From Branchiostoma floridae (Eukaryota; Chordata; Leptocardii; Amphioxiformes; Branchiostomatidae), in assembly GCF_000003815.2 (NCBI RefSeq), contig NC_049984.1, positions 7,860,604-7,924,603 of the forward strand: DNA of 64,000 bases. The letters run 5' to 3'. The translations under genes were made by a program, and so were the position numbers. The notes under the pieces were generated by a model. It saw only the letters and a program-made list of their open reading frames with translations, was not told the origin of the DNA and did not search any database. Shown one piece after another: positions 4,338 to 61,300 of this stretch (positions are counted from its first letter, which is position 1; each line of letters begins with the position of its first letter).

Positions 4338-7300
4338 CTACTCAAGCTGATTGGATGATGTTGAAGACAGTAGTTCCAAAGTGATGATATCATGTCTGCC
4401 CTGTAGACCAATCACAACTCTCTCTCCATCAGCCAGGATTTGACAGCAGTTGATTGGTTGGTCGGGAGTCAGGACGGCTAAGCATTGACCTGGAAAGCAC
4501 AAGGTCATCATGTACTGTAAATGCAGAAATGTTCGCGGTTGATTAATGGTTGACACCTTCACCGCGAACTTAAAACCACCGCGAACATTTTTCTATTATG
4601 GTATTAGACTGCAGTCTACGGTGTTACGGTGAAATAAAAACCACTGCGAAAAGTCCTTTTCCCCGCTACCGCGAAATTAAATCACCTCGAACTTAAATGC
4701 ATTTACAGTACTCCAGTGAAAACATCTAACACTCAAACTTTCAGCACCAGAGACAGTCTCTCCTGTAGAATGAGGATGTTTCTAAATAAGCTATTCTGGG
4801 AGAATATTATTTCTATTTAAGTGAGCCTGGAAAAACAAGCAAACTGTCTCATCTCATCCAAACATTTATATGAGATCAGCAAAAACTGATACATGTGTAT
4901 TAATAATTATCAATTCACATGATTAGCTGATAATGTTTAAAAAATTTGAACCAATAGTGTCTATCAGATTAAGTTCACATGCTTTTTCCCAACAATCTTC
5001 CAAAAAATGTGAATAACATGAATAAAAAAAAAGTAATATTGAATTGCTCCACAGCGTACCTTCCACAATGTCCCAGACCCTGATGCTGAGGTCATGGTGT
5101 GAAGGGTCAAAGGTCAGACACCTCCTCCCCTCATCTGCCAGCTGTAGGGTGTTTACAGGGTGGGTGTGGCCATCCAGAACATGTCTGGGAAGAACACATT
5201 AAAAGTTAATGGGAAATATTTCTGGTTTTATCATTTGTTCTACTGCATAGCAATGTAATAATGATAAAGAATATCATGGCAACAAAAAAATTACAGCCTA
5301 ACACAGCACTCACAGACTCACCTACAGGTTCCAGTCAGCAGGCCCCACACTTGCACCAGCCCATTCTTACAGCCTAACACACACAACACTCATGTACTCA
5401 CCTACAGGCCCCACACTTGCACCAGCCCATTCTTACAGCCTAACACAGCGCTCATGGATTCCTCAGACAGTGCCAGGCTGACCACAGGTGTCCCACCAGC
5501 CCATTCTTACAGCTTAACACACACAACACTCATGGACTCACCTACAGGTCCCAGTCAGCAAGTCCCACACCTGCACCAGCCCATTCTCACAGCCTAACAC
5601 AGCGCTCATGTACTCACCTATAGGCCCCACACTTGTACCAGCCCATTCTCACAGCCTAACGCACACACAGCACTCATGTACTCACCCACATGTCCCACAC
5701 CTGCACCAGCCCATTCTCACAGCCTAACACAGCGCTCATGTACTTACCTATAGGCCCCACACTTGTACCAGCCCATTCTCACAGCCTAACGCACACACAG
5801 CACTTATGTACTCACCCACATGTCCCACACCTGCACCAGCCCATTCTCACAGCCTAACACACACAGCACTCATGTACTCACCTACAGATCCCACACCTGT
5901 ACCAGCCCATTCTCACAGCCTAACACAGCACTTACAGACTCACCTACAGGCCCCAGTCAGTAGGCGCCACACCTGCACCAGCCCATTCTCACTGCCTAAC
6001 ACACACAACACTCATGTACTCACCTACAGATCCCACACCTGCACCAGCCCATTCTCACAGCCTAACACACACACAGCACTCATGGACTCACCCACATGTC
6101 CCACACCTGTACCAGCCCATTCTCACAGCCTAACACACACAGCGCTCATGTACTCACCTACAGGCCCCACACCTGGACCAGCCCATTCTCACAGCCTAAC
6201 ACACACACAGCACTCATGGACTCACCTACAGGCCCCACACCTGCACCAGCCCATTCTCACAGCCTAACACAACACTCATGTACTCACCTACAGATCCCAG
6301 TCAGCAAGCCCCACACCTGTACTCGCCCATTCTCACAGCCTAACACACACAACACTCATGTACTCTCCTACAGGCCCCTCACCTGTACCAGCCCATTCTC
6401 ACTGCCTAACACACACAACACTCATGGACTCACCTACAGGTCCTACACCTGTACCAGCCCATTCTCACAGCCTAACACACACACAGTACTCATGTACTCA
6501 CCTACAGGTCTCACACCTGCACCAGCCCATTCTCACAGCCTAACACACACAGCGCTCATGTACTCACCTACTGGCCCCACACTGATACCAGACCATTCTC
6601 ACAGCCTTACAAACACACAGCACTCATGTACTCACCTACAGGCCCCACACTTGCACCAGCCCATTCTCACAGCCTAACACAACACTCATGTACTCACCTA
6701 CAGGTCCAAGTCAGTAGGCCCCACACTTGCACCAGCCCATTCTCACAGCCAAACACACACAACACTCATGTACTTACCTACAGGCACCAGTCTGCAGGTC
6801 CTACACCCGTACCAGCCCATTCTGACAGCCTATCACACACAGCACTCATGTACACACCTACAGATCCCACACCTGTACCAGCCCATTCTCACAGCCTAAC
6901 ACAGCACTTACAGACTCACCTACAGGCCCCAGTCAGTAGGCGCCACACCTGCACCAGCCCATTCTCACTGCCTAACACACACAACACTCATGTACTCACC
7001 TACAGATCCCACACCTGCACCAGCCCATTCTCACAGCCTAACACACACACAGCACTCATGGACTCACCCACATGTCCCACACCTGTACCAGCCCATTCTC
7101 ACAGCCTAACACACACAGCACTCATGTACTCACCTACAGGCCCCACACCTGCACCAGCCCATTCTCACAGCCTAACACACACACAGCACTCATGGACTCA
7201 CCTACAGGCCCCACACCTGCACCAGCCCATTCTCACAGCCTAACACACACAACACTCATGTACTCACCTACAGATCCCAGTCAGCAAGCCCCACACCTGT

Positions 7301-10300
7301 ACTCGCCCATTCTCACAGCCTAACACACACAACACTCATGTACTCTCCTACAGGCCCCACACCTGTACCAGCCCATTCTCACTGCCTAACACACACAACG
7401 CTCATGTACTCACCTACAGGTCCTACACCTGTACCAGCCCATTCTCACAGCCTAACACACACACAGTACTCATGTACTCACCTACAGGTCTCACACCTGC
7501 ACCAGCCCATTCTCACAGCCTAACACACACAGCGCTCATGTACTCACCTACTGGCCCCACACTGATACCAGACCATTCTCACAGCCTTACAAACACACAG
7601 CACTCATGTACTCAGCTACAGGCCCCACACTTGCACCAGCCCATTCTCACAGCCTAACACAACACTCATGTACTCACCTACAGGTCCAAGTCAGTAGGCC
7701 CCACACTTGCACCAGCCCATTCTCACAGCCAAACACACACAACACTCATGTACTTACCTACAGGCACCAGTCTGCAGGTCCTACACCCGTACCAGCCCAT
7801 TCTGACAGCCTATCACACACAGCACTCATGTACACACCTACAGATCCCACACCTGTACCAGCCCATTCTCACAGCCTAACACAGCACTTACAGACTCACC
7901 TACAGGCCCCAGTCAGTAGGCGCCACACCTGCACCAGCCCATTCTCACTGCCTAACACACACAACACTCATGTACTCACCTACAGATCCCACACCTGCAC
8001 CAGCCCATTCTCACAGCCTAACACACACACAGCACTCATGGACTCACCCACATGTCCCACACCTGTACCAGCCCATTCTCACAGCCTAACACACACAGCA
8101 CTCATGTACTCACCTACAGGCCCCACACCTGCACCAGCCCATTCTCACAGCCCAACACACACAACACTCATGTACTCACCCACATGTCCCACACCTGTAC
8201 CAGCCTATTCTCACAGCCTAACACAAACAACACTCATGTACTCACCTACAGGCACCAGTCTGCAGGTCCCACACCTGCACCAGCCCATTCTCACAGCCTA
8301 ACAAACGCAGCGCTCATGTACTCACCTACAGGCCCGACACCTGTACCAGCCTATTCTCACAGCCTAACACATACAACACTCATGTACTCACCAACAGGTC
8401 CCACACCTGCACCAGCCCATTCTCACAGCCTAACACACACAGCACTCATGGACTCACCTACAGGCACCAGTCTGCAGGCCCCACACCTGCACCAGCCCAT
8501 TCTCACAGCCTAACACACACAATACTCATGTAAAACAGGCCCCAGTCAGCAAGTCCCACACCTGCACCAGCCCATTCTGACAGCCTAACACACACAGCAC
8601 TCATGGACTCACCTACAGGCACCAGTCTGCAGATCCCACACCTGCACCAGCCCATTCTCACAGCCTAACACACACACAGCGCTCATGGACTCACCTACAG
8701 GCACCAGTCTGCAGATCCCACACCTGCACCAGCCCATTCTCACAGCCTAACACAGCGCTCATGGACTCTTCGGACAGTGCCAGGCTGACCACAGGTGTCC
8801 CAGGCTTCAGCTTCTTGAACAGCTGTCCAGTCTTCAGGTCATACACGATGACCAGACATACATCTGGGTCTATCAGCTCCTATGAAACACACATGATAGT
8901 TTTCAAATTGTCATCATATAGAGACAGTCTTATCATCCCAACCCCCTCACTATATGTTTGATGTAAACATACAGTACCTCTGGACATGCAAGGAAATACT
9001 AGGGAGTTTTGAAGATTGCATTGGAAGAAATGAAAAGAATAGAAAACTTCAATTTTGAACTTGCTCTATCAGAAATATGATATGTAGTATAGTACCACTA
9101 ATCACTTACCAAGTTGGCTACAGTCAAGGCTACCACACAAGTGTTGCTCCTAAACTACAAGTACCAAGCTAGTATCACCTTTACAGCTACACTCATGGCT
9201 ACCTCACTTGTTTCACTTCTACATAGCAGTCAACATTACCAAATGAGAAGTTATCTCATTTTTGGTATTTTCTTGACACGTTAACCATTCCTGGAAGGGA
9301 ACAGGATTTCACGATCTTGTTTTATCAAATCAGGTAAAAATCAACGTATGCACTGAAGTCATCCATAAAACTTCCTTGCTGTTTGGCCTGATCTTACCTT
9401 ACAAGAAGAGGCCACATATTTGCCATTGTTTGTGATGGCCGACAGTCTGGCATTGAACTCGTGTCCCATGATCCTCAGGTCGTGCACCAGTTTGCGGTTG
9501 ATGAGGTCCCACACGAGCAGCGGGCTGGGCTTCTGCGTCTCGTCCCCGCACACGACAGTCTCCCCGTTAGAGCTGATCAGCAAACTGTTCAAGAAACGGT
9601 CCTGTGGGTGGTATTGAAGGGGATGTTTAGGTTTGGCTGGAGATAGAGCCTGGAGTAGAGATGTGTACCTGTACCCAGTACTGATACAATGAATGTAGAT
9701 ATACAAACTGTTCAAGAAGCGGTCCTGTGGGTGGCATTGCAGGGGATGTTAAGGTTTCCTGTACACCATAGAAAAACTACCTTTGATGGTATAGCATTTC
9801 CCCATCCCAACGGGAGTGACTGGTTGGTGAAAGAACAGTTGGAGTAGGGATGTGTACTGTACCCAGTACCGATAGTTGTACCTGATGTTAGATTTAGGCA
9901 CACATTCCTAGCCTACAGAGATATACCAAGGCTATCTCTTGAAGAGAAAATTATTTAAGAGGCTAAATATGATAAATGCTATACATATACATGCAAATCT
10001 TATGATCTGTCAACCAGTGTTAGAGAAAACAGGTCATGAATCTGTGCTAGTTTTAGTGCATAGTTGTCACTAAAACACTACCATACAACAAACACTACGA
10101 ACAACTGCACTAGCATCAAAAGGTAGTTGCTGAAATGTACTAGGATAGTTTAAAACATTACTACGCACCTCTCCGGCCTTGAATGTGGACACCACATCTC
10201 CGCTGGTCACGTTGATGACGTTGACGTACATCCGGTTCCGAGAGAGCGCGACGACGTGGTCGCTGTCGTGTATGCCAAAGTACGGCATGGTGGCATTCAT

Positions 10301-19300: not shown

Positions 19301-22300
19301 GGACAGACAGACTTATGCAACTTTGTGTTTCATATTACATATTTGTTTTGAAAAGTAGTTGACCCTGTCAAACATTTCAATCTTCATCTTGGCTGCTGAG
19401 ACAGTAACTTCTGATTCTATCCTGGCTTCCCAGAAGGCAAGACGCTGAGATATTACTTTCACTTTTTTATAATCTCCAAGGGCCAAGAGATGAGATGTTA
19501 TTATCCCTGTAAGCGAGGGTGATTACAACGATCTGTTTCGCTGCACTGACGTCAGCACATTGTCATTCATTGACTCTATCCTTCAGAGCATCTCAAATAT
19601 CCCATTAGACGGCCAAGTATTTTGTCAACTCCAATTTTGTATGTACCGCACAATTTCAAAAACAACCTGCCAGAATCACCAACCGCTACATGATTGCTAC
19701 ATGTATAATTGTCCAACCTAGAGCAAAGGCACCAAAGTGATCAAACAGGAAAGATACAGCTTTAAACATTGGCAGATTGGTAAGGCTTAGGAAAAGTAAT
19801 CTTGTGTTTCGAATTATGGTCCTGGAAAAATAGGATTGGTCAATGACCTCAGTTTAGGACTCCTGAATGGCTTATAACTTGTTGACGATCAACTGTAATA
19901 TATTAGAGCATGATAAGGTGGGGGCTATGGTATTATGAAATCGATAAACTCTTTGATGAACGCAATTACTGTTGAACATCAATTAAGCCTAGGAAAAAAA
20001 TGTTGTATCTTGTTTCAGTCGAGAAAAAATCAGGGTCGGAAGGTAGGGACTATCTTTTTTTTTAGGCTGGCCAAAACTCTAGTGATAAATATTACAAAAA
20101 AGTTGAACAAAGTAAGCTGAAATGTATGAGGACACTTGTCTTTCAACTTTAATTTTGGGCATATAAAAATGGATACCTTTATCCTTCATTAGATAGGACA
20201 AGCAGGGTTTACTTCAATAGGAAGCTGGCTGAATAAATATTCTAACTGGAAGGTATATGACTCCACTGCCCACCCCCCAAAACGTCTAGGGTCGGCAGGT
20301 TTTTCTATGGTAGGTAGGGAAACTGGAAACACAACATATTTTTCCTAGGCCTTAGCTTACTTAATAGTTTGTTACACTCTACATCTAACACATCTGCTGC
20401 AGTTCCTCCCCGTTGAGATGGTACGCTCCATGTAACCTCGGCAACAAGAAAAGATAGGGTTGCCATGGCGATGGGTCCCAACTGACGTCACCAACCCGCA
20501 GGAGAGTACGAAATGATAGCGGGATGAGGGATGGTACGCAGGCAGTATCACTGTGAAGCTCCTCTGGTGCGATGGCCTGTCATTTAGCAAATTGTTTTAG
20601 CTATCAGATGGTCCATTACCAAGATACCCTAGAGATAATCAGGCATTATTAGGCATGCTGATGGCATCTCTCCCCTGCTGGGTGGTAACATGGGGAAGGC
20701 CAAGGAAAACTACTGTTGTGTTTCTTTGTACAAATTAGTGTCAGTTTGTAGGGATTCCTTCCTAATTTTTTTCTTTCTCTTTTTAAATTTTGGCCGAAGT
20801 AATCCAACAGATACTGTAAATGTAAGGCTGAAATGCATCAGGACAATGCTATTTTTTATACCATATTTCAACTGTGCACAGCATACGGGATGAAATCATA
20901 GTGTAGGGAACAAAAATCATAGCATAGCAGGCCAAAATCATACGATAGGTTAGTTGCATATTGCAATACACTGGTGATAGCCCAGGGATGTTAAAAAATC
21001 AAAGATAAAAAGTCAACAATATTTACATCACTAAGATTCACATTCAGTTCAAAAATGTTATGTCCCTTGCCACCAGTCAACAAAAAAAGGCTATTAAGAT
21101 TTGGCAGGGTCAGTAGAATGACCAGAAATACAAAGGCAAGTTGTACTGTCAATTTTTTTTCACAGCCTCACACACAGGACCTTACTTTTGTGACACTGTG
21201 AAAATCAAGGAGTGCACTGTATCTCTGAGCGTACAGCTGAAATAATTATCTATAGTTGTGATGAAAATGCCTGCGCCATTTTGCAGTGGAGAAGTAATCG
21301 CAAAAAATGCCTACCTAAACGGGTACTTTAAATGCTACAAATATTTCAAGGTCTACAGTACATGCCAGGTTCTCTTTGATGTATCTTAATACGTTTTATG
21401 ATGCTGTTAGCAATTTCTGGATGGAAACAACATGCGTGACTTGGGTTGACAGACTGGGCTGTGCAGCTGTTACAAAATTAAGTCCACCCGTCTGATCACT
21501 TTGTTGTTAAGTGCTTTCAAATTGGTGCTTCATATGTACAACATGGCACTAAGAAGGTTTTATATTGTGGTTGGTTAGTTGGTTGGTTGGTTGTGTCTGA
21601 GGGTTGGTTAGTTGTGTTTGTGGGTTGGTTGTGTTTGCGGGTTGGTTAGTTGTGTTTGTGGGTCGGTTGGCTGTGTTTGTGGGTCGGTTGGTTGTGTTTG
21701 TGGGTCGGTTGGTTGTGTTTGTGGGTCGGTTGGTTGTGTTAGTGGGTTGGCTGGTTGTGTTTGTGGGTCAGTTGGTTGTGTTTGTGGGTTGGTTGGTTGT
21801 GTTTGTGGGTTGGTTAGTTGTGCTTGTGGGTCAGTTGGTTGTGTTTGTGGGTTGGTTGGTTGTGTTTGTGGGTTGGTTGGTTGTGTTTGAGGGTCAGTTG
21901 GTTGTGCTTGTGGGTCGGTTGGTTGTGTTTGTGGCTTGGTTGGTTGTGTTTGTAATGATTGGTTGTGTTTGTGCCTTGAACCACCTGTTAAGAGGCCCCC
22001 TGGTGTCAGACCCCTGTTAATTTCAGGCTTCAATTGAAGGCTGCACACCTGAACTGTAGTCTCTGCTAGCCTAAGGGAATGATTCTGAAGCAAAATAACT
22101 GTAGCACGGTTTTGGGCATTGTCACACGAACAAAGAAAGACCAGCTGACTGTAGAGGAGACTGAGATGACAAGAGAGCCTTGTCGAGGGTGAAGTGCTAC
22201 TGCAACAATGAACAGAACTGATGCCATTTTAACCGCCTTAAAACCACCATATCCTTGATTTAATAACAAAAAATAATGTCTTTTATATCTCTGACTTTAT

Positions 22301-24904
22301 GCTTACAGGAGACAAGAACTTCCATGAGAATAGGATAGGAACATTTTAAAAGAATTCAATTTATAAATGTATATCATATTGGACAATTTGATGGTGTCAT
22401 TCGGGACACCTGAAGTAAAAGCTGCCGCTGCTGTTGAATGGCTTATTTGGTTAAAAATATTTTGCATTTTGTTGGCTGAATAATTGTGGATTCTTTACAA
22501 TACTATAGCCATATCCCAAAAAATCTACATACAAGACAAGACAAAAAATTATCTCTGGCAATAGAAATGTTCAACTTTGCACAAAAATTGGCTGATACCA
22601 AATTGAATGTTGCTGGCCATGGTACTGATAGCAACATGAAAATTAATAAAACAAACATCAACTTTGCAATAAAGACTCTGAAAAACAGTGCATAAGAGAA
22701 AATAGATAACCTTGTACTGTCTTTGTAATTGTATTCTTGTAAACATTCATTTAGTTCTGGTAATTACCTTCAAACTTGGACATTATGGTCTACCAAACAC
22801 CATGATTAATGACAGAATTTCTGCATCACTGTCAATGACTTACTATAAACCTAACATGTACCACTTTAAGACAAAGACGCAAAGAAAGACTGCAACCTGG
22901 CAATTCATCTGAATATATATGCCCAAACTGCGGACGCGACTGTCATGCGAGGATTGGGTTACAGTCCCACAGTCGACGCTGTCAACCGCCCTAACTTCAA
23001 GGAGAGAGTGCTACCATCATCTGGAAAGATGGAAGGATGCCTACTACTACTACTACCACTTTCCTGGTGGTTTTATTTTTGCAGCTTTTGTGATACCCTC
23101 TCCACCATTATTTCATGACGCTGTGAATGTGCATTTCGAAAAGGAGGTGCATACTATGTTTGAGGTTACTGCATGGATAAATGGTAAAAGAACACAGAAT
23201 AAGGCAAGAAGGTTTCAAAACATACACATTGGTGTTGTTTTGGTGTTGTCTTACCAAAGGAACTGTGTAAACTTGACTTAAATTAGAGTTTCATTTGCAT
23301 ACAAACATTTTGAGTTACTGACTCTGACATGTATAACTGTTTTCTCCAGTTGGATTTATGCAAAATAACTGGGGAAAATAAATCATNNNNNNNNNNNNNN
23401 NNNNNNNNNNNNNNNNNNNNNNNNNNNNNNNNNNNNNNNNNNNNNNNNNNNNNNNNNNNNNNNNNNNNNNNNNNNNNNNNNNNNNNAGGGGTGCGTATTT
23501 TAATTGGGGTGCATACTTTTATTCGAGAAATTACGGTAATGAATTTACAGTGCGGTAAAACTTTCAGTGAGGAAAACATTGGGCTTCTGAACTCCAAGTT
23601 GCTATGGTGACCCTGAAGTAAATGGACTCTCCAGAAAAGCCTAACAAAACAAGGCAGGACCAGAGCATTTGCACACAATAGTCGCCCTGTTAGCTGAATG
23701 CCACTGTTGACCTAGTGATAGGACGGCCATTCTCCAGCTTTGCACTCAAGCATCAAGTGTAGGGGGAAAACACAAGCCCGTTTCAACATAGTAAAGCTCA
23801 GTTGGGCCAACAAGGCTAGAAATCTTGGCATGTCCCCAGTGTCATGACTGTTCTTGTTTGTCTTTGCACTGGGGTTTTTAGACAGTTTTAAAGATTTGGA
23901 AATGTGTCTAAGGCTACACCAATTTAATTTGTCCATTCACAGTTTAAAAAGATATATAAAAGAAGTATGTGGAACAGCCATGATGCTATGGTTTCATATG
24001 CTTAACTGGAAAAACATCATAAAAACATAGCCTGAGGACCAGGTGTATGTCTTGATGCACTCAGGTTTATGGAGTGGATATGGTCATATTCAAGTTTTCC
24101 TCCCTGCCAATTATGATGTTTGCTTGCCATATTTTCACTTCAAAAATCTGAGAACCAATAAATTAAATTGGTGTGGCCCAAAACTGGTAGAACTGTAATA
24201 ATATTGATTAATTAGAAGTATTCTAAACCCTATGTGTGCAGTCCACTCCAATGATGTACTTTTCGGGGGAGAACCCCCGTATAACATATGCACCCAACTT
24301 TTGCGTTCATCTGGAACACCTGTTTGCAACTTAATGAGTTTAAAAATGTGTATGCCATTGGAGAACTTACAGTATACCAAACCAGATCAATACAAGCTTG
24401 GTTCTTCAGCTTTAATTTTGAGCTTTTTGCAGTGACCTCTCCACTCCAAATTCATCACACCACAAATGTGTCTCCCTTGTATATGACTACATACAGTGTT
24501 GGAGAATCATTTCAGCAGTAAATCCAAAACACAGCAAAACCCTCCTCTTCCTAATTCAAAATTAACCCTTAAACTGCCATAGTTTCAGCCCTATAAAATG
24601 CTATTAATGCAAGGGTTGACCGCTGACCTCCGAAAAGAGACCCCCAAACAAGGCCGAAGTCCCTAGCTTCCGGGGTTCATGGTAATACCCTATCCCGGTT
24701 ATAACCGGGCACGGCACACAGGGCATGTATATGTGTGACGGATATATCCGGGTTTGGCAGTTTAAGTGTTAAATCACTGCAAAAGTAAATGAATTCACAG
24801 TGTCATCGTGCTACTTGCTATAACCCTTACCTGAGGCCATCGTGTGAATCCTCGCCGAATTCCGCGCTCGGCACGGAGGAGCGAACAGAGCATCCGATCC
24901 CCAT
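4338..24904 (-). CDS. NWD1/NWD2-like: NACHT domain and WD-repeat protein, NWD1/NWD2-like
   Basis: Fourteen exons on the minus strand: 24831-24904, 17829-17973, 16992-17397, 16288-16490, 14550-14829, 13814-14028, 13248-13422, 12541-12884, 12049-12252, 10169-11674, 9398-9601, 8695-8879, 5060-5184, 4338-4489. They sum to 4218 nt, exactly 1405 codons plus TAG, with every junction in phase. The N-terminus is MGIGCS, then a Pro/Gln/Thr-rich linker. A DUF4062-like region (residues about 190-300) has RVYVVSCAED, GYQFELVDMYEGV and GQKYG. The NACHT P-loop GADGCGKS is near residues 549-556. Next comes a helical segment (exon 10), then WD repeats ending VWDL, VYDL, VWDL and VWDI. Walker B is odd: RPLLLLLEG lacks the usual acidic D-x-x-D pattern. 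Vertebrate NWD1/2 are longer (about 1560-1740 aa) with more WD repeats. The family is of signalling STAND ATPases; the role here is unknown. Exon 1 is the least certain. Confidence 0.86.
4515..4708. mobile_element. TA-flanked MITE (Tc1/mariner-type), 194 bp
   Basis: Inverted ends CTGTAAATGCA (4515-4525) and TGCATTTACAG (4698-4708) are each flanked by TA. The interior carries further inverted GTTCGCGG / CCGCGAAC segments. It sits in the last NWD intron, 25 bp from the acceptor of the terminal exon. TA duplication and short TIRs fit a non-autonomous Tc1/mariner-type element. No transposase is present. Confidence 0.75.
5310..8694 (-). repeat. 3.4-kb minisatellite built from a WD-repeat exon end plus its splice donor
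   Basis: Roughly 45-55 imperfect units of about 55-80 bp fill the intron between NWD exons 12 and 13. On the minus strand each unit reads TTAG-GCTGTGAGAATGGGCTG, GTGCAGGTGTGGG, then CCTGTAG and GTGAGT. This is the last part of exon 12 (CENGLVQVW...TGACR) followed by its donor and a few intron bases. Long and short units differ by a CTGCAGACTGG-type insert. A copy at about 5455-5510 carries extra exon-12 sequence (GTGGTCAGCC, GAGGAATCCATGAGC on the minus strand). There is also a higher-order repeat: the landmark CTTACAGACTCACCTACAGG recurs at 5931, 6907 and 7887, a period of 976-980 bp. Long open frames on the plus strand here are repeat artefacts. Confidence 0.93.
9582..9850 (-). repeat. Tandem duplication of the exon-11 acceptor end of the NWD gene
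   Basis: The 5' edge of exon 11 and its upstream intron are repeated with a 123-bp offset: acceptor CCCACAG at 9602-9608 and again ending at 9725. The upstream copy begins with the same GACCG codons (DRFLNSL). The 123 nt between the two acceptors are open in the exon frame (41 codons, no stop). Use of the upstream acceptor would therefore lengthen the protein without a frameshift. Confidence 0.8.
12340..12374 (+). other. Hammerhead-like core motif in a degenerate retroelement tail
   Basis: CTGATGA (12340-12346) is followed by a 6-bp perfect stem (GAACGA / TCGTTC) with a short loop, then GAAAC and GTC. This resembles the hammerhead ribozyme core CUGAUGA-stem II-GAAA-UH. A second site on the minus strand near 46745-46785 keeps the same stem-loop plan (AGTGA-TGGATG-TCACT), GAAAC and GTCTGGA, but has lost CTGATGA. 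Penelope-like retroelements are known to carry minimal hammerheads. Stem I and stem III were not convincingly found, so activity is doubtful. Confidence 0.3.
15048..16250. mobile_element. Non-autonomous DNA transposon, 1203 bp, perfect 12-bp TIR and 8-bp target duplication
   Basis: The termini AGGGTCTGCATG (15048-15059) and CATGCAGACCCT (16239-16250) are exact inverted repeats. The 8-bp target duplication CTTACTAG is at 15040-15047 and 16251-16258. Both subterminal regions are packed with repeats of a near-palindromic motif TTTACGNTAAATT: four on the left (about 15070-15185), about seven on the right (16015-16235). The centre (about 15230-16010) holds 4.5 copies of a roughly 180-bp unit starting AAATTTTGAAATCTTGACCC. 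There is no transposase. An 8-bp duplication fits hAT, but the ends do not start CAGGG, so it is left unclassified. It lies in an NWD intron 30 bp from an exon. Confidence 0.85.
21570..21975. repeat. 21-bp minisatellite (GTTGGTTGTGTTTGTGGGTCG)-type
   Basis: About 18 near-identical units made of GGTTGGTTGTGTTTGTGGGT with T/C and C/G variants are arranged head to tail. The strong G+T strand bias makes both strands open in several frames, explaining the repetitive VFVGRLV / PQTQPTD frames. This is not a gene. Confidence 0.93.
22880..23045 (+). mobile_element. 3' end remnant of a non-LTR retrotransposon
   Basis: Starting at about 22918 the plus strand encodes ICPNCGRDCHARIGLQSHSR, followed by RC. 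This Cys/His cluster, C-P-x-C-x-R-x-C-x-A-R-I-G-L-x-S-H, is one I recognise from the extreme C-terminus of endonuclease/reverse-transcriptase ORFs in invertebrate non-LTR elements. The frame is not long and no reverse transcriptase is adjacent, so only a 5'-truncated tail is present, as expected for such insertions. Confidence 0.6.
23387..23486. other. Assembly gap (100 N)
   Basis: Exactly 100 N, a conventional placeholder for a gap of unknown size. The right flank (GTGCGTATTTTAATTGGGG and GTGCATACTTTTATTCG) is internally repetitive, which may be why the assembly failed here. Confidence 0.99.
24566..24768. mobile_element. piggyBac-like MITE, 203 bp, TTAA-flanked
   Basis: The inverted ends CCCTTAAACTGCCA (24566-24579) and TGGCAGTTTAAGTG (24755-24768) differ at one position. 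Each is bounded by TTAA (24562-24565 and 24769-24772). TTAA duplication with CCCT-type ends is the hallmark of piggyBac. There is no coding capacity. The element ends 62 bp from the donor of NWD exon 1. Confidence 0.8.
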
Positions 24905-43300: not shown

Positions 43301-46300
43301 TGTGATCTTACTTTTGTCTTGGTGGCCTCTTCCAGTGCTGTTTTCTGACTAGCCATATTCCTCTTCAGGTTCTCCAACTCAAACTGGTACAGAGCATCCC
43401 TGAAGAAAAAAAGCAAAGTTGCAAAAATGCTTCACTACATTTGCTACTCCATTGTCCTATGCTCAAAACAATGGCAGTTTTTAGTTTATAGCTTCATGTT
43501 GAGGGGTGAAGATGCTCTGTGGTCAAGATTGAATGTTGTGCCCATGGGAGAGGCACATTTCCTTACTCCACACAGGTAAGATTGAGTAACTAGCTTCATT
43601 TAGGTACGTCCTCTGAGATGGTAAGTAAAGTCGGACACCTTTATCTGTAACAGTAGGGGTGTGAGTGGATTAAAAAAAAATGTGCCAAACCCACCTCTGC
43701 TCTGCTTCTTCCCTGTTGGCCTCCAGTTTATACTCCAGTCCCTGCAGTGTTGTAGACAGAACGTCCCTCTCTGCTTTCAGATTCTCTTTTTCAGTCTAGG
43801 CAAAGATGAAGAAACATTCAACAGCGTCACAAAAGCAAACAACAGAGTTTTCATTTCAAGCAGCAAAAGTAAAAGCACAATCCTCAGTAAAGTTTCTGCT
43901 CGATGTTTGGTCAACGTTTTTTCTGTTGCAATTGATATCTTTCCGACACAAAATTTGGAAACTATAGGCGGGATATCATCCTGATGAATGCTAACACAAC
44001 CTTATACTACACATTCTATCAAAGTGCTCATATAGGTGCAAACTGTACCTTTAGGGCACTGATTTCCTCATTCTTCAGTTTACGAGCTATCTCGTACTGG
44101 TCGACTTGTGCCATGACTGTGGCGTTGTCGGTGCGTAACTTGTCCAGTTCTTCATTCTGTCTGTCCATGAGAGCCTTCAGCTCCGTCCTCTCAGGCGACT
44201 CTGGAGATATCTTAGGATGCAAAAAAGAAACAAGCAACAACATCAGGAAAGCAAACAACAGAATGTTCATTTCAAGCAGCAAAGGCAACAGCAAAGTCCT
44301 CTGTAAGGTTTTTGTTGGATGTTTTGTCAATGTTGCATAAAAATTTTGTCTGAGGCAATGTGAGATATTTCAACACAACATTTGGAAACTTAAGGCCTTA
44401 TACATGCTAACATGTACAAACAACATCAATGCTAATGCAAAATGCATCTGATTTAAGTATAAGACATTCTACAGATATGAAGAACAGCACTAGGAAATGA
44501 AAAATAGACAAACCTCAATGATGGCCTGCTGTTCCACTTCACGGAGCTTCTCTTCAAACTGTCTCTTTGTGTCTCTGAGCTCATTTTCTTTGTCAATCAG
44601 CTGGAGAAAAAAATACAGAAACAAGTTAAGAAAGTTGTTAATAGATAAGAAAAAGTCAAAGTTGTTATTATCAAAATAAAAGTGTTTGATTATGTGATAA
44701 ACCAAGACATACGCAGAGATGTTTGATGGCCTTTGACTTTGACTCAACATTAGAGTAGAACAGGCTAGTGTACCAATATTTTTTCAGTCCTATCAACCTG
44801 ATAAAGATTAGGCCTACGAAAAAAAAGATTTACTCCTTTGTTCAGTTTAATATATTCCCTACCTCATTTTTTCCAGGCCATAATCGGAAATGCAACATCA
44901 ACTTTCCCAGGCCTTACCACATTCTGTATCTCGAGCATCTTTCTTGTGGCCTCTTCTGCCTGGCTCTGAGATGCCGCCAGCTGCTGGTTCTGCTTGTCCA
45001 GTTCTTCTGTCAGCTGGGAATACTGCTCTGTGGTGTAAGACAGGTCCTCACGCAGCATGCTGATCTGTGGGACGGATGCATCATCATGTAAGAAGACGGG
45101 TTTAGAAAATGGTGAATTTAAATAACAAGTACATAACCCAAACCTATGCCAACAAATGCTATCTGCAACCAAGAAATGAAGACCACAGCATTCCCAACAC
45201 AACAGATACAAAACCTGACTGTTCTGCTGCAGTACCAAGGAAAGCCACCAGGAGGCCCAAGATTTGTATCTTCCCACATACCAAATAGCATTACGATCCA
45301 TCCAGAGGTTTTTAACTTTTGATCTGACCACAAACACAACAAAAACAATACCTCAATTTTTCATGAAGGTAATTAGAAAATATTAAATGGATCTAGTGCA
45401 ACAGTTCAGGGGGATATCATCCTATTAACACAATCTTATAAAAAGGTTGATAAAAAGTCTTTTAAAAAATGATACTTATGGCACTGTCAAAGTGCTATCC
45501 CTTTCCCACCTCACACTCCTGCGAACTCTTCTCCCTCTCCACCTTCAGCTGGAGATCGGCCGTTTCCTCCTGCAGTGTTGTGATAGTCTGCAGCTGTTCC
45601 TCCCGGACTGACTCCGCCGTCTGGATGGCCTGCCGACTCTCGGCCAGCTCGGACTCCACAGTGGCCAGCTGGCAGTTCTTGTCGTGCATCTGCTGCCGCA
45701 GGTCCTGTACTGTGGACATCAGGCTGGCAAGGGCTTCCTGGGGAGGGGGGCACACAACGGGCCAAGGTGAGGAACAATGTTTGAAACTAAAAATTTGAGG
45801 CCATATGTGCAATGGGTTGTTATCCGCTATGTCTGGGGCACAGTATTGTAAGGTGGAGCCCATCTCTCTCCTTCCAAGACCTTTTAACTCCCTAAACAAA
45901 GTCAGGAATCCATTTTTATAGCTGAGTGGAGTGAAGAAAGATGAGCAAAGAGCCTTTTCAAAGGACAAAAAGTTTAGCCATCTATGCCCATAATGGAACC
46001 TGTGACCTCTCAACATCGTGTCTGCTAGCTTTGGCCATTTGATGCCATTTAAAAATACTGGCATGGTTACATCGAACTTCAGATGGTTTCCATACAATGC
46101 AGACAACACCTTCACATGACCTTGAACATTACCTTATCTTCAGCCTGTCGCTTCTGAAGAGTTTGTACGCTCCCCTTGGCCTGCTCCAGTTCTCTCCTGA
46201 CGTCACTAAGCTCCGACACCTTCTCCTGGTACTGAGTGACCAGCCCCTCGTGTTGAGCCTTCAGCGTGGCCAGGTCCTGGTTCACTCTGGTCAGCTCCTC

Positions 46301-49300: not shown

Positions 49301-52300
49301 GCCGGCCGCGCGATAAATTACGAAAATTAACAAAATAGCTTTTTTAAGGGGTGATAAAAAGGTAAGTGAAGGCTGAAAAGCGTATTTTATCTTATTTACT
49401 TGTAATATGCACTACATAGAAATATTCTACAGGATTCCAGACATTAATATCTTTTTATTATGTTTTTACACAGGGTCAAAGTATGCATTTTGCAACAAAT
49501 TACTCAGGTGGCAGCGTGACCTTTGACCCCTGGGGAAGGAAAATTCCTCCAAAGTTTACACACTTGTATCTCTTGACAGGAATGACCATGTCTTCCAATA
49601 TTTCACATAAAACAGCACCCAGTGGTGTTCTTTCACACAATAACAGTCATGTTATCTGTACTTCATAAGAAAATGAGTAAATTTGGGTATATATACATAC
49701 ATTTTTGGTTGTGTTCTATGGTATTTTGCTGGTGAGTATACTATACGGTGCACTGTACTAGACCGAGTACCATACTTAATATACTTTTACAATGTACAGC
49801 ATTATGTTATTTCCTATTACCAAAGAATGTCACATCCACAGAATGTCAACAATGGTAACTTCTTTAATAAGAAGGTCAACTTGGTCAAGGTCAAAGGTAA
49901 GATTGCATGAACATCTCGCATTATTTGATGAGGCACAATGTTACACTGCATCATTGGCATAAGTTCACACTTGCACAATACAGTCAAACCTGTATTAGGG
50001 GCCACCTCTACAGAGGGGCCACCTGTCCATTATAAGTGGCCACTTTTTGTCGGTCCCTTGGGTATTTTATCTACAAGTTGCCACCTCTATACAGAGGCCA
50101 CCTGTCTATAGTGGCCAAATTTGTCCAGTCCCTTGAGTGGCCGCTATAGACAGGTTTGACTGTACATGACAGATGTTAGTACTATAAGAAGAGATAAAAT
50201 AATGATAAATAGACAATGTAAACACTGAATTTATCATGACAAGGTAAACATTTTTCAAGGTCACAGGCTATTTTCTGTAAATGTAACGTTACATAGATTT
50301 TTTGTATGTACTTCCCGATAATTCTTATAATCAGTAATTATCACCTGTATCATGCAAAGTACACAAAGTTTTGCACAGTCACAAAAAAAGGCCTACTTAT
50401 CATTTCCTGTGGCACTAACTGTTCTGTGCTTTCTTAACAAACTTAACACTTTCATTCAGTTAAACTGGCTGCACAACTAGTTAACTTGTCAACTTTACAT
50501 TTGTCCTACACCATCCTATACATGTGTATCTCGCTCTACTTATTGGTACTACAACCTACATTCTTCAAGTTTTTTCTCTGCTGGTCTTTTATCAGCCTCA
50601 TCCCGGATTAGATAGAATATTCCTCCTAATAAACAATTAAACTTTTAGTTTTACTATTGTGTCTACCATGGTGATGAATGATGATGGTCATCTATCTGCG
50701 GCGAAGACGTCCTACCCAAGTACCCGACACCATCACTACGGTGATTTGTAGTTATACAGTTCTTTTTTATGACGTTATAAAGTGGTTATAAAGAAAGAAT
50801 CAGACTGACACATGCATGTAACTGAATTCTATATAATACATCAAGAAGATTTGAAGTTAAAATAGATTAAGATTAGATAAATTCCCAAAACCGGATGGAA
50901 GAAGGTAAGTCAGTGAGTGTCATTGCTTCTACGTACTACACCATCTTCTACGACTGAACCTGGGTACCAAGTCTTGGAGGTCGCCATTACCAAACTGTAG
51001 AGACAAGAATATAATATTGCAGGTAAGTACTGCAGATTTATGATCTTTACTTAACTATCCAGACGTGCAAAGTCAAACAAAATGCCACATGGCACAAAGA
51101 GCACTTGAGCAATCTGGTTGTAACAAGCTTACTTCACAATGAAAATGCCATAAGTATCTTTTTTAATTGGGCATAGCTTCCCCGGCTGACCCTAACAGGT
51201 GGCCACACAAGTGAAAAAATACACTTGGTATTTTGGACTCGGAACGAGGTAAGAAATGATTTGACAAATAATAACAATGACATTGAAAATGCCATTGATT
51301 TCTTATTTTGAAAAAAAAATTGGGCACAGGTTCCCCGGCTGACCCCTAACCGGGGGCCACGGTTGCCTCAAGTTCAACAAGTAAAAAAATACACCATGGT
51401 ATTTTGGACTTGGAACAAGGCAAGAAATGATTCACACAAATAATAACGAGGGTATTAAAAATGCCATTAATTATTTGTTTTGAAAAAATTGGGCATAGGT
51501 TCCCCGGATGACCCCTAACCGGGGGCCACGGTTGCCTCAAGTTCAACAAGTAAAAAAATACACTGTGGTATTTTGGACTTGGAACAAGGCAAGAAATGAT
51601 TCACACAAATAATATGGAGGATATTGAAAATGCCATTAATTATTTATTTTGAAAAATTTGGGCATAGGTTCCCCGGCTGACCCCTAACCGGGGGCCACGG
51701 TTGCCTCAAGTTCAACAAGTAAAAAAAATACACCATGGTATTTTGAACTTGGAACAAGGCAAGAAAATTTATGATTCACAAGGCCAATAACAAGAAAGAA
51801 ATAAATAAAATGATTAATAAATCTAAACCTGCAATGTTTTACATTGTCTCATGACTTAAAAACATGAATAAAGACATGATTTTGCATTGCTGGCATTGTC
51901 TATAGACAGAACAAAAAAATAAAAAAATGGTCAAAACAAACAAAAAAAAGAAAACATTTTCTTCCTTTAGGACACAAAAGCCCCCCATCCCAAAACAAAC
52001 CTACAATCTACAGACACTAAAAATGCATCAAAGTATTTTACCTGGAAATTCCTGCTCCATAGCGTCGAAAAGGATCTGTTTGTGCCGCTTCAGTCACATA
52101 ACTTCTATTTGTAATAGGCGCGCGGCCGAAGTTCGGCGCGTCAGGATCGCGTGGCCGGCCAAACACGGCGCGCTCGGGCCGACCTCGCCAGGAAAACAAG
52201 CTCCGCGATCCGCCGGCGTGCATGCAATAGACATGCCGATTACATCAAAACGTAGCCTATTTTTTTGTCGTCATTTGGACAGGGGTGACAACCGGCAAAA

Positions 52301-55300
52301 ATAACATTTTTGCGGAGATTTTTACAATTAAAGATCGATCAATCGCTTCAAGTGGAATTTTTACCGGCAAAAAATAAAAGTTTACAACTGTCACCGGTAT
52401 CATTTTAAAGCCCTTAATCTGCTCTTTGCAATGATACTACTTTCATTCTGCTGCTGTCTAACACAGCGATGCGCAAGCGCTCCAAACACAAGGTTAGAGG
52501 TCGCGTGCAGGCGGAAGTGTTGGGCCCGTCCCGCGCAACGCCGGGCGTTCCGCTCACGGCGCGCCGTTTTCACCGGCAAATTTCTGGCGTCTTGAACATT
52601 TTACAAACTAAACAAACATATCACAAGAAAGAGAAACTTATATGCTTTATTTTCATGGGTAACTTTGCCTCTAGGAACGGATAGTTTTTGTGCCGCGGGT
52701 GTGGGAAGATGGTAAGAAATTTACCGATCGCCGTGCGGTGGAACGTTTTCGCGGTAGCGTTGGAATACCTACTTACAAACAAAAACAATGCATGCCCTGT
52801 ACAATTCCTGGAATTCTTACAAACTGTACAGAATACTATAATATTAGGCTTGCTTCCTGACGTCATTGCAAAAAAACTGGGAGCTTCTGACCTGCAGTTG
52901 CTTGATCTCATCATGCAAGGCCTCGGCACACTGCTGGATCATTTCCGGGGGAGGCAGCTCATCATCAATGTCCTCGCCTTTCTCATCACCTGTCTCCCCC
53001 TCCAGGTCAAATGGTATAGGCTGTTGGACCACCCTGGTCCTCAGGTGGTACAGGGCCTTCTTACTGGGAGTCAGATTCTGAGGGGTGGACAGGATAATCA
53101 GATTGGCAGTCAACTTTAACATGACCTGAAGCATTACTCAGATGTTCAATTTCATTAAAAAATCTGTCTAGCATTCCAAAGAAAGTGTAAGACAGGGAAG
53201 TCTGAGACCCCTAAGGAGTTGCACATATACAAAACTGCATATAGAAGCAAAAATGATAACGCTCAGCACACAGTAGTAGCCATTTGGCTATCAATATTCT
53301 GTTGGTTGTAGCAGGGAGATGGTCATAAGCTAGCTACCACAGAAATTTTGCAATTATAAAATCCCTACAAGTGACCTAACCAAAGGCACAAAAACATCCA
53401 TGACCAAAGTGTCAACGATATCTGGAAATCAGTAATAACTCTTTCCACAATATCTGTCAATCGGAACATGGAACATGATTATAAAACAAAGCAATATGAC
53501 CTTGAAACCTTTACTGACCTTGATGGTTTCCATGTAGATGTCATAAGACAATGGAACATAAAACAAAAGCAATGTGACCTTGAAACCCTTACTGACCTTG
53601 ATGGTTTCCATGTGGATGTCGTTCATGGTTGTCCTGTTGATCCTGTTGCGGACCTGACAGGCCTCCAGAACCTTCTCCAGCTCCTGAGTGGATGTCTTGT
53701 ACGAGGCCAGCTCAGACTCAAGCTCCAGCTTCTGTTTTTCCCAGGAGGCCTCCATCTGCTGAAGGTTCTCCTTAGTCTGCAAAAAACAATTCCTTCAGTT
53801 ATCCTGATTGGCCCTTGCAGTTCCAGCTAGGGGCCCCAAATTTACACTGCTTCTTTTCAACAGTTACACCAAAAGCTACCTGCTTTAAAAAAAATCAAAA
53901 CCCTAGCACGTCTAAGACAAAAGATACAGAAAACTAAGAAAGTTTTGCTCCAGTACAGAGAAAGAATATGATAATGTATATTAGTATTTCATTGTATCAC
54001 GCAACATTTCATTGCAATAGTTTGTTGTGCTCACTATGGTTGCAACACACTGCAAACATGTCCTCTGCATACTGCACTGTGCCAACAGTAAAACCAAAAC
54101 ACATTGAACGAATTCTGTCTCCAAACTTCAAACTATCTACAATAAGTATTAATGGAAGACCCTTACCATGTCCAACTCCTCCTGAAGTTTTTGCACCTTT
54201 GTCTTCAGTTTCTCCACTGTTGCCACGGCAACAGTCTCAGCGGCAAGAGGCGTGCCTGCAGCACTCAGGCTGGTTCTACGGTCCACCGTTGGAGCACCTC
54301 CTGAAAAACAAGATTCCAGCACTCATGTACTTTACTACCTTCCAGAGTATTACTTTAGAATGGACTAGTTTAGAATGGACTGAGACAAAAAATACACAGT
54401 GTGGCATATCTGAAATGGCAAACATGATAAAACTAGCAACCCTTCTTTACGGTATAAACTCCTTCAACACCTCATCAAGTACAACTTTTTTACTACAACC
54501 CTATACAAAATTATGCAAGTTTGATACAACTGGCTGTCATATTGTGAAAAGCTCTAAGTAGGTACTCCTAACGGCTTGACATTACCTCTATGCGTGTGAA
54601 GCCATGTGCCATCCTGGCAGTCAACACCACCACCACTGGACCTGTGCAAACCCTACTTCCACTTCTTCAAGTATACTATTATACCACTTTTGCCTTACAT
54701 GCTGCAACTCTACAGTCTCTACACAACTTTGGACTTACATCAACACAAAGAAACACATCAACAATAACTCCATTTTCAGAAGGGTAACAAGTAACAGTAG
54801 CTACAAACATGCCCTGGTGTGCAATGGTGCAAATCAACCGGGTGGAGGCCTGGCAAACCTCTGTCTCATATCAGCTATACAGTGATTTACATCATTTACC
54901 CAGACTTCAGGAAGAGCAGTGATGTATCAACCAAACAAAGCAGTTAAGTTAAAGTTAAAGTTGCCCGTACATCAGTAACAGATGCGTAGGGGTGGCGCCC
55001 ATCTCCATTTCTGTAGCCCTTGGGCCACACATGTGCAAGCCATTACAGCAAGGGGCTGGCCCGCTGGTAGTGATGTGTGTTTAACTTCCATACTCTTCCT
55101 CATTAGTGCTGAGTGCTAAGCAGAGAAAGCAGCATGTACCATTTTTAAAGCAGCACATTCTTTTAAATCATCATTCTTTTAAAACTAACCATCTTCCTTT
55201 GCCATGAGTTCCTTGAAGCTGTTCTCCAGCTCCATGACCTGCTGTGCGCTGTAGGCCTTATTACTTAGGTACTCAGGAGTGCGCATCTCCTTCAGTTTCT

Positions 55301-58300: not shown

Positions 58301-61300
58301 AATCCCCTGTAGCAACTGCTGATTAGCACTATCACCGTTGTGATATATTAGCCTGTCATTAACATAGAACCCAAATTGAATGTTGCTTGTATCTAATTTG
58401 TACTTGCTATCCATGCACTGCCAAACCATATTCTTTCATGACAAATGTAAAAAAATTAAGATTGAAATAAATTTCAAATGAAGCCAATGTTAATTATCAA
58501 ATAGCATTCATATCTAGCAGTTCATATATTATACATGCCAAGCTGCAAAATAATGTTTATTGAAACTGAGTGCTGTTAAAGCTGATGACAATCCAGCCCC
58601 TGGGGCTGTCAACAAGCTTTTAATCCATCGAAACGAGTCTACTATCAGTACTACACGCATGGACGAATCAGTAGTAGGAAGGAAGGAAACTGACTAATTA
58701 TACTGCAAACATTTTAACATTCTCTTCCTCTTCTGTTTTTGTGGATTACAGGAGGAAAAACTCCATGAATTAAAAGAAAACGAGATCAAATATCATCAAG
58801 AAGACAAGTTGACTGCTTAAATAACAAGCAACAATGGCTCTTCAACCAAATCCAGTGTACCAGGCAGAACATGTTTTGCGTAAAGTTGCCATCCCAAAAG
58901 CAGAAAAAAGCAACAAGAAAAAGGCAGGAGACTCTAGCAGCGAGGATGTTGTACGAGAACTGAACGAGGCTTTGATGCAAACGTCTATCACTGAGCACGG
59001 AAAACATCCCTTCAGATACGGCATTGCTTCTGTCAACTTCAAGGGAGACACAAAGGGTGCTGGGAACGCAAATTTGCGTAAACTTCTTCTCAGTCAGCTT
59101 CAGGGTCAGATGCACGTATCTATAGTTTTCGTGCAAGAGTGTCCGTGGGCAGATGCCACAACACAGCTTCAACTCGGCGACAAGTTTTGCTACACAGGAG
59201 TTGCCAATGAAGCAGGGATCCTCTGGAATAGTGAACTGTTTGAAGTGGAACGCTTAGACTCATACAGACTGATTGGAGACAAGTATCCAAATCTAATCCA
59301 ACACCGAGGACGAACATGCATCTGCAAGTTCACACTTAAACCTGAGCCTGAATGCCATACAGCAGGTAACAACATCGCATTGGAGAGGACAGCACACGTA
59401 TCCGACTTTATAGCCATCTCCTGGCATGGACCGCACAAGTGCATTGATGCAGAAAAACAGATGATATTTCATGACCTCCTCAACTTTGTCAAGACCCTTA
59501 CAGAAGGCAGGAACGGCCAGGCAGCATGCATTATCGGCGGGGACTTTAATTTCAGTATTGACAAGGCACACAAGAATATAGACAGTTTCCACGGGTTAAC
59601 CGTTGCTACTTCTTATGGATCAGAAACAATTGACTACTTCATATTTACCTCTGACTCAATCAATGTTCTGCATGCTCAGCAGTTATCTTTGAACTATGAT
59701 ACTGGAAGTGTGTACACAACGCAGGATAGAGACAGGGCCAGAGCAGAGGCTTGTAAAACTGCATCCAACAAGATCATTGACCACAGCCCAATCTTTGCCG
59801 TGTTAGACCTCGGAAGCCCATCGCCATTTGCCTCTCCACGCAAGAGCAAAGTTGGCCAAAACTCAAGAAAGTGACTTTAAACAAGATCAGTAAAATCTGA
59901 AAGTTGCAGACTGTCCTCCAAAACCATCAAATCACTTATTTGCCAGTTTGACATGCTGCAAGTAGGCTTACACATTTTGTAACAATTGAGAGGATAGAAA
60001 TGTGAATGACTGTGAAGATGGCAAGTACATGTACAAAGCAAATTATTTATTGCAGTCTACTGATGTGTTGAGAAACATTGAATATTGACACAAGAATATT
60101 GACACAAGAATATTGACAGTTTTCATGGCTTAACCATTGCTGCTTCCTTTGGATCAGAAACAATTGACTACTTCATATTTACCTATGACTCGATCAATGT
60201 TCTGCATGCTGAGCAGTTATCTTTGAGCTATGATACAAGAAGTGTGTACACAACACAGGATAGAGACAGGGCCCGAGCAGAGGCCTGTAAAACTGCATCC
60301 AACGAGATTATTGACCACAGCCCAATCTTTGCCATGTTAGACCTCGGAAGCCCATTGCCATTTGCCTCTCCACGCAAGAGAATACCGGGCAAAATTCAAG
60401 AATAGCGACTTCCTACAAGGGATCAGTAAAATTTGAAAGTTGTAGGACTGTCCTCTAAAATCTCAAATAACTTATTTGACTAAAGTGATGCAAGTCTGCT
60501 AACACAACATGATGATGATAGAGACTACAAAAATTTAATGCAAATGACTGTTAAGATGGCAGGTACATAGCAAGTTACTTATTACAGTCTGGAGATGTGT
60601 TCCAAGACACAATGTCTTGGAATGCCTAGAATGTATTTATAGCACAGAGTAACTGTCATAATCTCAGTGGTCAGCAGTGGCCAGTCGGGCAGTGGACACT
60701 CCTTGGCCAGCTTTGATACTATCTTATGCCACTGGTAAACGTGCCTGGAGACTTAACAGTCACAGATCTACATACCATCATAGGAAAATGCTTCTAGGAT
60801 ATCTCAGCAAGTATCATAGATTACCGCTCTTTACATATGTGTAACTTGCAGTATAAATAATATAGATACATAAAACCAACATCTATCTATTATGTAACAT
60901 CATTAAAATCAACAACTTGTTCTTCGGGTCAAGGTCTATGCTCCAAGATAGAAACTGACATTTGGTCGTAACTTTTTGAATATACTGTTTAAAAAATTCT
61001 TAGTCTAGTAAAAACATAATCCTGCTTATCTACTTACTTGGAGCCGGGATGAACATTGGCAATAATGTACGTCTTTGCATTGCCTCCAAGGGAATCCTGT
61101 AAGCAAAAACAAGCCATGTTAAAGGGCTATACAGTTCTGTCATTACTCTCTAAGCAGCTTTGTCGTATCATACCAAATATCATAAAGATGCATCCACAAA
61201 TTCTTGAGTTTTGCTGTCTACAAAAACACACACATAAACGGCATTGAAAACATAACCTTCGTGGTGAAAGTATCAAGTAAAACTAAATGAGGGATGTGTC

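Follow-up and report, generated by a model that had tools for sequence, protein, structure and literature searches.

One intron of a minus-strand gene in the lancelet Branchiostoma floridae is filled almost entirely with tandem copies of the end of the exon that precedes it, donor site included. This raises the question of whether such copies disturb splicing, regulate it or are simply removed with the intron that contains them. The intron lies within a window of 64,000 nucleotides (nt) (NCBI RefSeq assembly GCF_000003815.2, contig NC_049984.1, positions 7,860,604 to 7,924,603 of the forward strand), and all coordinates given below refer to positions in this window. The copies form an array of 48 units, the last of them truncated, at 5292–8694 on the minus strand (the distal end is approximate). 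Its anatomy suggests that it is probably a passive minisatellite of the type published as "mirages" at exon-intron junctions, which expanded through unequal exchange and leaves the transcript in the ordinary course of splicing.

The host gene was modelled as 13 exons (exons farther upstream were not sought), which when joined constitute one open frame of 1,380 amino acids (aa) with a stop codon at its end. Pfam analysis of the predicted protein identified the NWD1-like winged helix HTH_NWD1 (45.7 bits; cut-off 27) and WD40 (28.9 bits; cut-off 27). NACHT was counted as the third diagnostic domain, though its score (24.7 bits) is under its cut-off of 26.7. Judged by these predicted domains, the host is an NWD1-like NACHT-WD40 gene. 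An Rfam scan of the window gave no matches at gathering scores.

Anatomy and origin of the repeat unit

The units derive from a 185-nt exon (8695–8879, minus strand; donor at 8695/8694) whose place in the gene is supported by the open joined frame. It is the 11th of the 13 modelled exons, and is referred to here as exon 12, following the numbering of a first-pass annotation of this DNA. The next exon (exon 13 in the same numbering; 5060–5184, minus strand) carries the strongest acceptor of the array-bearing intron. This intron (8694–5185, minus strand) is 3,510 nt long, compared to 288–1,458 nt for the other eleven introns of the gene, and apart from about 110 nt it is occupied by the array (approximately 3.4 kb). 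An amplification of the exon 12 end of about 50-fold within a single intron had been reported in the annotation; tandem-repeat analysis (Tandem Repeats Finder scores of up to 3424) and alignment to exon 12 confirmed the array and gave a count of 48 units beyond the exon's own copy. An anchor search yielded 50 matches, i.e. the 48 units, the exon's own copy and one chance match. The interval originally assigned to the array, 5310–8879, takes in exon 12 as well and stops about 18 bp short of the distal end.

The basic unit is 76 bp long and consists of exon 12 bases 112–185 followed by GT. Of the 48 units, 39 have an upstream arm that begins at exon base 112, and 45 have one that begins within bases 111–114; the three remaining units start at bases 77, 78 and 126. 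The lengths of units u01–u47 range from 62 to 80 bp. Among the 47 regular units, 32 lack 14 nt close to the end of the exon sequence and 15 retain them, and the longer units contain an additional TG (TG-length changes). The 47 regular units represent 34 distinct sequences; 43 of them retain GT at the donor place, and u01 shows no difference from exon 12 in the 56 columns compared, a match expected from recent duplication or conversion.

Each unit had been described as the exon 3′ end followed by a GTGAGT donor and a TTAG acceptor. The exon-derived part of this description holds. The TTAG, on the other hand, is coding sequence (codons GTG TTA GGC), and the GAGT of the unit donor matches the exon's GAG TCC codons, so that donor positions +3 to +6 match the exon as well. 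The GTGAGT donor is completed at the duplication joint, where GT meets exonic GAGT, and this applies also to the donor of the first copy. Within 5290–8900, exact GTGAGT occurs 40 times, AGGTGAGT 32 times and TTAGGCTGT 37 times (the last count takes in the exon's own). Two features used to recognize mirages were thus found: the unit spans an exon-intron boundary, and the units carry duplicated splice signals (AG/GT).

This anatomy suggests the following course of events. The first extra copy would have arisen when the final 74 bases of the exon were duplicated in tandem along with the GT of the intron (76 bp). The joint GT together with the exon's own GAGT would have created the GTGAGT donor in the copies, including the first donor, which, judged by the frame, exon 12 now uses. 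Slippage and unequal exchange may then have expanded the array to 48 units, the duplication of a 14-unit block being the latest step. The 110 nt at the distal end of the intron (5185–5294, minus strand), which run from GTAATT to the acceptor CCCAG, appear to be a remnant of the original intron, and the GTAATT at their start is presumed to be its original donor. TAG/GTAATT scores below TAG/GTGAGT by both donor matrices described below (4.05 versus 6.04 and 7.49 versus 10.77).

Splice-site strength and reading frame

Donor sites were scored with (i) a matrix trained on 26 other donors of the window and (ii) a vertebrate matrix. The acceptor matrix was trained on 25 sites, among them the true acceptor of the array intron. 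The background for site density was provided by 5,982 nt of the other introns of the gene.

With the window matrix and the 25th percentile of the real donors as threshold, the array intron contains 35 donor-like sites (9.97/kb), compared to 11 (1.84/kb) in the other introns. The vertebrate matrix at the median of real donors gave 75 sites (21.37/kb) versus 4 (0.67/kb), and at least 8 of the 9 positions of CAGGTRAGT are matched by 36 sites in the array intron (the first donor counted) versus one elsewhere. Two of three measures thus put donor-like density above that of the other introns, by a factor of 5 (window matrix, 25th percentile) to 32 (vertebrate matrix, median). The strictest one, the window matrix at its median, showed no excess (three sites in the array intron, three in the other introns).

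Acceptors present a different picture from the donors of the array. The array intron contains 16 acceptor-like sites (4.56/kb), versus 24 (4.01/kb) in the other introns, and all of those in the array fall below the median of real acceptors. The best array acceptor scores 7.9, while the true acceptor, itself part of the training set, scores 12.4 and is the best of the intron. The proposal that each unit is a mini-exon with an acceptor of its own was not supported by this comparison: by sequence score, the units do not pair a usable acceptor with a usable donor, as poison exons would. The reading frame points the same way. Read-through beyond the first donor gives GACR and then a stop, and no open frame was found among the scored products that use the array (0 of 279 cassettes of 9–400 nt, 0 of 69 alternative acceptors and 0 of 35 alternative donors), which bears out the earlier statement that only the first donor keeps the frame. 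These zeros are not independent, as the units are copies of one another. Mini-exons are accordingly disfavoured by weak acceptors and closed frames alike.

Two further ways of using the array in splicing were set aside. Mini-introns between units would be only about 28–32 nt long, compared to 288–3,510 nt for the modelled introns of the gene. Recursive splicing at CTGTAG/GTGAGT would depend on sites of which the best is the 7.9 acceptor already mentioned.

If exon 12 is spliced from 8695 directly to the exon at 5184, the array is skipped and the 1,380-aa frame stays open, which is consistent with the undisturbed mRNA splicing that characterizes mirages. Since the array offers many donors yet no competitive acceptor, the first donor would be joined to the strong acceptor at the distal end, and the array would be removed as a single intron. 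Such clean splicing in the animal seems probable.

The same data bear on a regulatory alternative, in which dozens of U1-pairing sites would hold the U1 small nuclear ribonucleoprotein, slow the removal of the intron, feed poison exons or block premature polyadenylation, with copy number tuning the amount of protein. The annotation had gone some way in this direction by describing a field of decoy splice sites. The 5- to 32-fold donor excess agrees with that description, as do the closure of every scored array-using product and the absence of AATAAA and ATTAAA from the sense strand of 5290–8900. It fits poorly with the equal donor counts at the window-matrix median and with acceptors that are neither in excess nor strong; moreover, the closed frames do not count as independent observations, the units being mutual copies. 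Together with the lack of selection on the donors described in the next section, this makes a regulatory decoy improbable. A passive minisatellite remains the preferred explanation.

RNA folding added two minor observations, from which no conclusion was drawn. One 341-nt stretch folds better than its shuffled versions (z = −2.36; 1 of 100 shuffles equally good), and the predicted chance of being unpaired is slightly higher for the array donors than for hexamers on average (0.084 versus 0.048).

Conservation and history of the array

The donors of the array do not show extra conservation: identity is 96% in the donor columns and 93% elsewhere, and the donor ranks 21st of 51 six-column windows across the 34 distinct units. 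Four of the 47 regular units (u02, u15, u19 and u33) have lost the GT, the exon-copy unit u46 is without a donor, and the donors of u12 and u26 read GTGTGT. In u15 the loss postdates the duplication of the 14-unit block, because its partner u29 retains the donor. Relative to the exon, substitution types are spread evenly over the three codon positions (10, 9 and 11). These patterns of conservation and substitution demand no function. A regulatory role is possible, and is not suggested by conservation; the broken donors count against a decoy, and no sign of selection for one was seen.

Several observations weigh against a purely passive array derived from one founder event. The first donor is unremarkable by the window matrix (6.0, compared to 7.6 for the median real donor), and further copies of its 9-mer occur in the array; the matrices disagree on its strength, the vertebrate one placing it (10.8) above the median of real donors (7.6). 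The probability that it is unpaired is also predicted to be low (0.005, compared to a mean of 0.084 for 46 array donor hexamers). The case for its use therefore rests on frame and position and not on strength. Substitutions counted by cell are most frequent at codon position 3 (72, versus 46 and 40), and there is some surplus of synonymous types (11 of 28, versus 32 of 132 possible). Finally, a simple single founder event leaves the distal end unexplained, as the last unit is truncated and a copy located at 5420–5494 requires a separate exchange.

This latter copy (minus strand) corresponds to exon bases 79–153 and thus extends upstream of the unit breakpoint. It is identical to the exon at 71 of 75 positions, and three of the four differences are synonymous. 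The 75-nt copy must have arisen from the exon by a different event than the units. Its synonymous bias, a matter of three changes, would fit the drift of a working exon under constraint.

The 980-bp higher-order structure noted in the annotation was recovered by comparison of unit pairs and blocks. Block A (7166–8145, minus strand; 14 units, 980 bp) and block B (6190–7165, minus strand; 14 units, 976 bp) share 972 identical positions and differ by four substitutions and four gap positions. They are followed by a partial block C (5848–6189, minus strand; 5 units, 342 bp), with five differences from A and five from B. Identical unit pairs were found at the 14-unit offset (13 of 35) and at no other offset from 1 to 24. 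The blocks thus display the concerted evolution, or homogenization within a cluster, expected of mirages.

The near identity of blocks A and B could also indicate that the assembly is partly at fault, in copy number or in the 14-unit blocks, the true array being shorter or longer. There are precedents for this: one of the globin mirages had been misassembled in the draft genome (PMC3087553), and lancelet PGBD5 contains 2 or 7 copies of a 60-bp repeat and 3 or 6 copies of a 108-bp repeat, depending on which of two assemblies is taken (PMC3902484). The blocks are nevertheless distinguishable from one another, as are 34 of the 47 regular units, and we consider a partial artefact unlikely; in any case, it would leave the nature of the unit unaffected.

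If 14-unit blocks were exchanged between alleles or somatically, the array could also act as a copy-number rheostat, in which a U1-binding field without matching acceptors would slow one intron and a change in block number would alter the amount of protein. We regard this as very improbable. A still more doubtful proposal is that conversion between the array and exon 12 supplies variants to the WD repeat of an NLR-like protein. The identity of u01 with the exon and the segment variants encoded by the long units are in keeping with such a template reservoir. The former is equally explained by recent duplication, however, while the 14-nt deletion of the 32 shorter units would shift the frame and some long units (u13, u27) contain a stop. 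It therefore has hardly any likelihood.

Growth of the passive array in one direction, away from the exon, was not established. Identity did not correlate with distance over the 47 units (Spearman −0.06, P = 0.70), and over the 15 long units the coefficient was −0.47 (P = 0.08).

Related arrays and other duplications in the window

The annotation had pointed to minisatellites at exon-intron junctions of an amphioxus Adh locus. These have indeed been published as mirages (PMC3087553, PMC3902484). The Adh3 mirages (Canestro et al. 2002, as cited in PMC3087553 and PMC3902484) consist of units of 10–72 bp, compared to 62–80 bp here. Their mRNA was reported to be undisturbed, as is favoured for the present array, and somatic instability was demonstrated for them; here a single sequence was read. 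No interference with splicing was suggested for Adh3 and the globins (PMC3087553) or for Adh and TnC (PMC3902484).

The boundary duplications of the globin genes BflGb6 and BflGb9 have the same architecture, and that of BflGb9 duplicates the 3′ boundary of the exon, like the array described here (PMC3087553). The globin units D1–D6 show homogenization (PMC3087553), but they are 150–160 bp long and present in at most six copies, whereas this array comprises 48 copies and a higher-order repeat. PGBD5 likewise contains imperfect tandem repeats within the gene that abut 5′ splice sites, with units of 60 and 108 bp and only 2 to 7 copies (PMC3902484). Exon copies with splice sites are mentioned for the introns of VCBP3 (PMC2632668). 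For the amphioxus huntingtin gene, the excerpted text mentions tandem repeats and not mirages (PMC2206037).

Outside the lancelets, intron gain by tandem duplication in potato RdRp also spans an intron-exon boundary and takes its donor from exonic bases (PMC4974935). A new intron arose in that case, whereas here an existing one has grown and seems to have had its donor rebuilt. CeRep25B of C. elegans is, like this array, an intronic minisatellite proposed to affect (alternative) splicing; it apparently does not derive from a neighbouring exon, and the link to splicing is statistical (PMC4039745).

No publication on this array was found among titles in the open-access literature, which is weak evidence. 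The array adds a new and large case to a class already described, with more copies than the examples for which copy numbers are stated, and is hence a large instance of a published, little-studied phenomenon. Its anatomy suggests how duplication of an exon edge may assemble a donor from codons, and how donor-like sites can fill an intron while the frame of the gene remains readable. It also lends itself, as a natural experiment, to studying which of many near-identical donors the spliceosome selects where good acceptors are scarce.

Other local duplications were observed at exon edges in the window. In the same minus-strand gene, the exon at 9601 has its acceptor and initial bases in duplicate (9581–9634 and 9704–9757; 54 bp, 93% identity, 123 bp apart). 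A PX-domain gene contains a duplication on the acceptor side of an exon (349–384 and 424–459; 36 bp, 89%, 75 bp apart). In a kinesin-like gene, named from motor-domain pieces elsewhere in the gene, the donor side of an exon is duplicated (53481–53542 and 53558–53620; 63 bp, 94%, 77 bp apart), and a 173-bp duplication (43809–43969 and 44225–44396; 76%) ends just before the acceptor of an exon.

Local duplications were not enriched at exon edges of the window (3 of 12 families versus 2.5 expected, P = 0.48), in a test that excluded rows inside the array beforehand and used an incomplete exon map of the kinesin gene. From the 23 rows, 11 were dropped: seven outside the three modelled gene regions (at 21.5 and 29–30 kb) and four overlapping families that were kept. 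Given this lack of preference, local duplication may simply be common in the window.

Three further repeats were recorded: a minisatellite with a 21-bp unit, present in about 20 copies and lying outside the modelled genes (21568–21973), a repeat of approximately 169 bp in 3.3 copies (51136–51780), and a tandem duplication of approximately 500 bp (59568–60069 and 60102–60601; 83%). The last of these overlaps a plus-strand frame (58825–59874) that matches Exo_endo_phos (26.1 bits; cut-off 24.5). A run of exactly 100 N at 23387–23486 represents an assembly gap or a mask.
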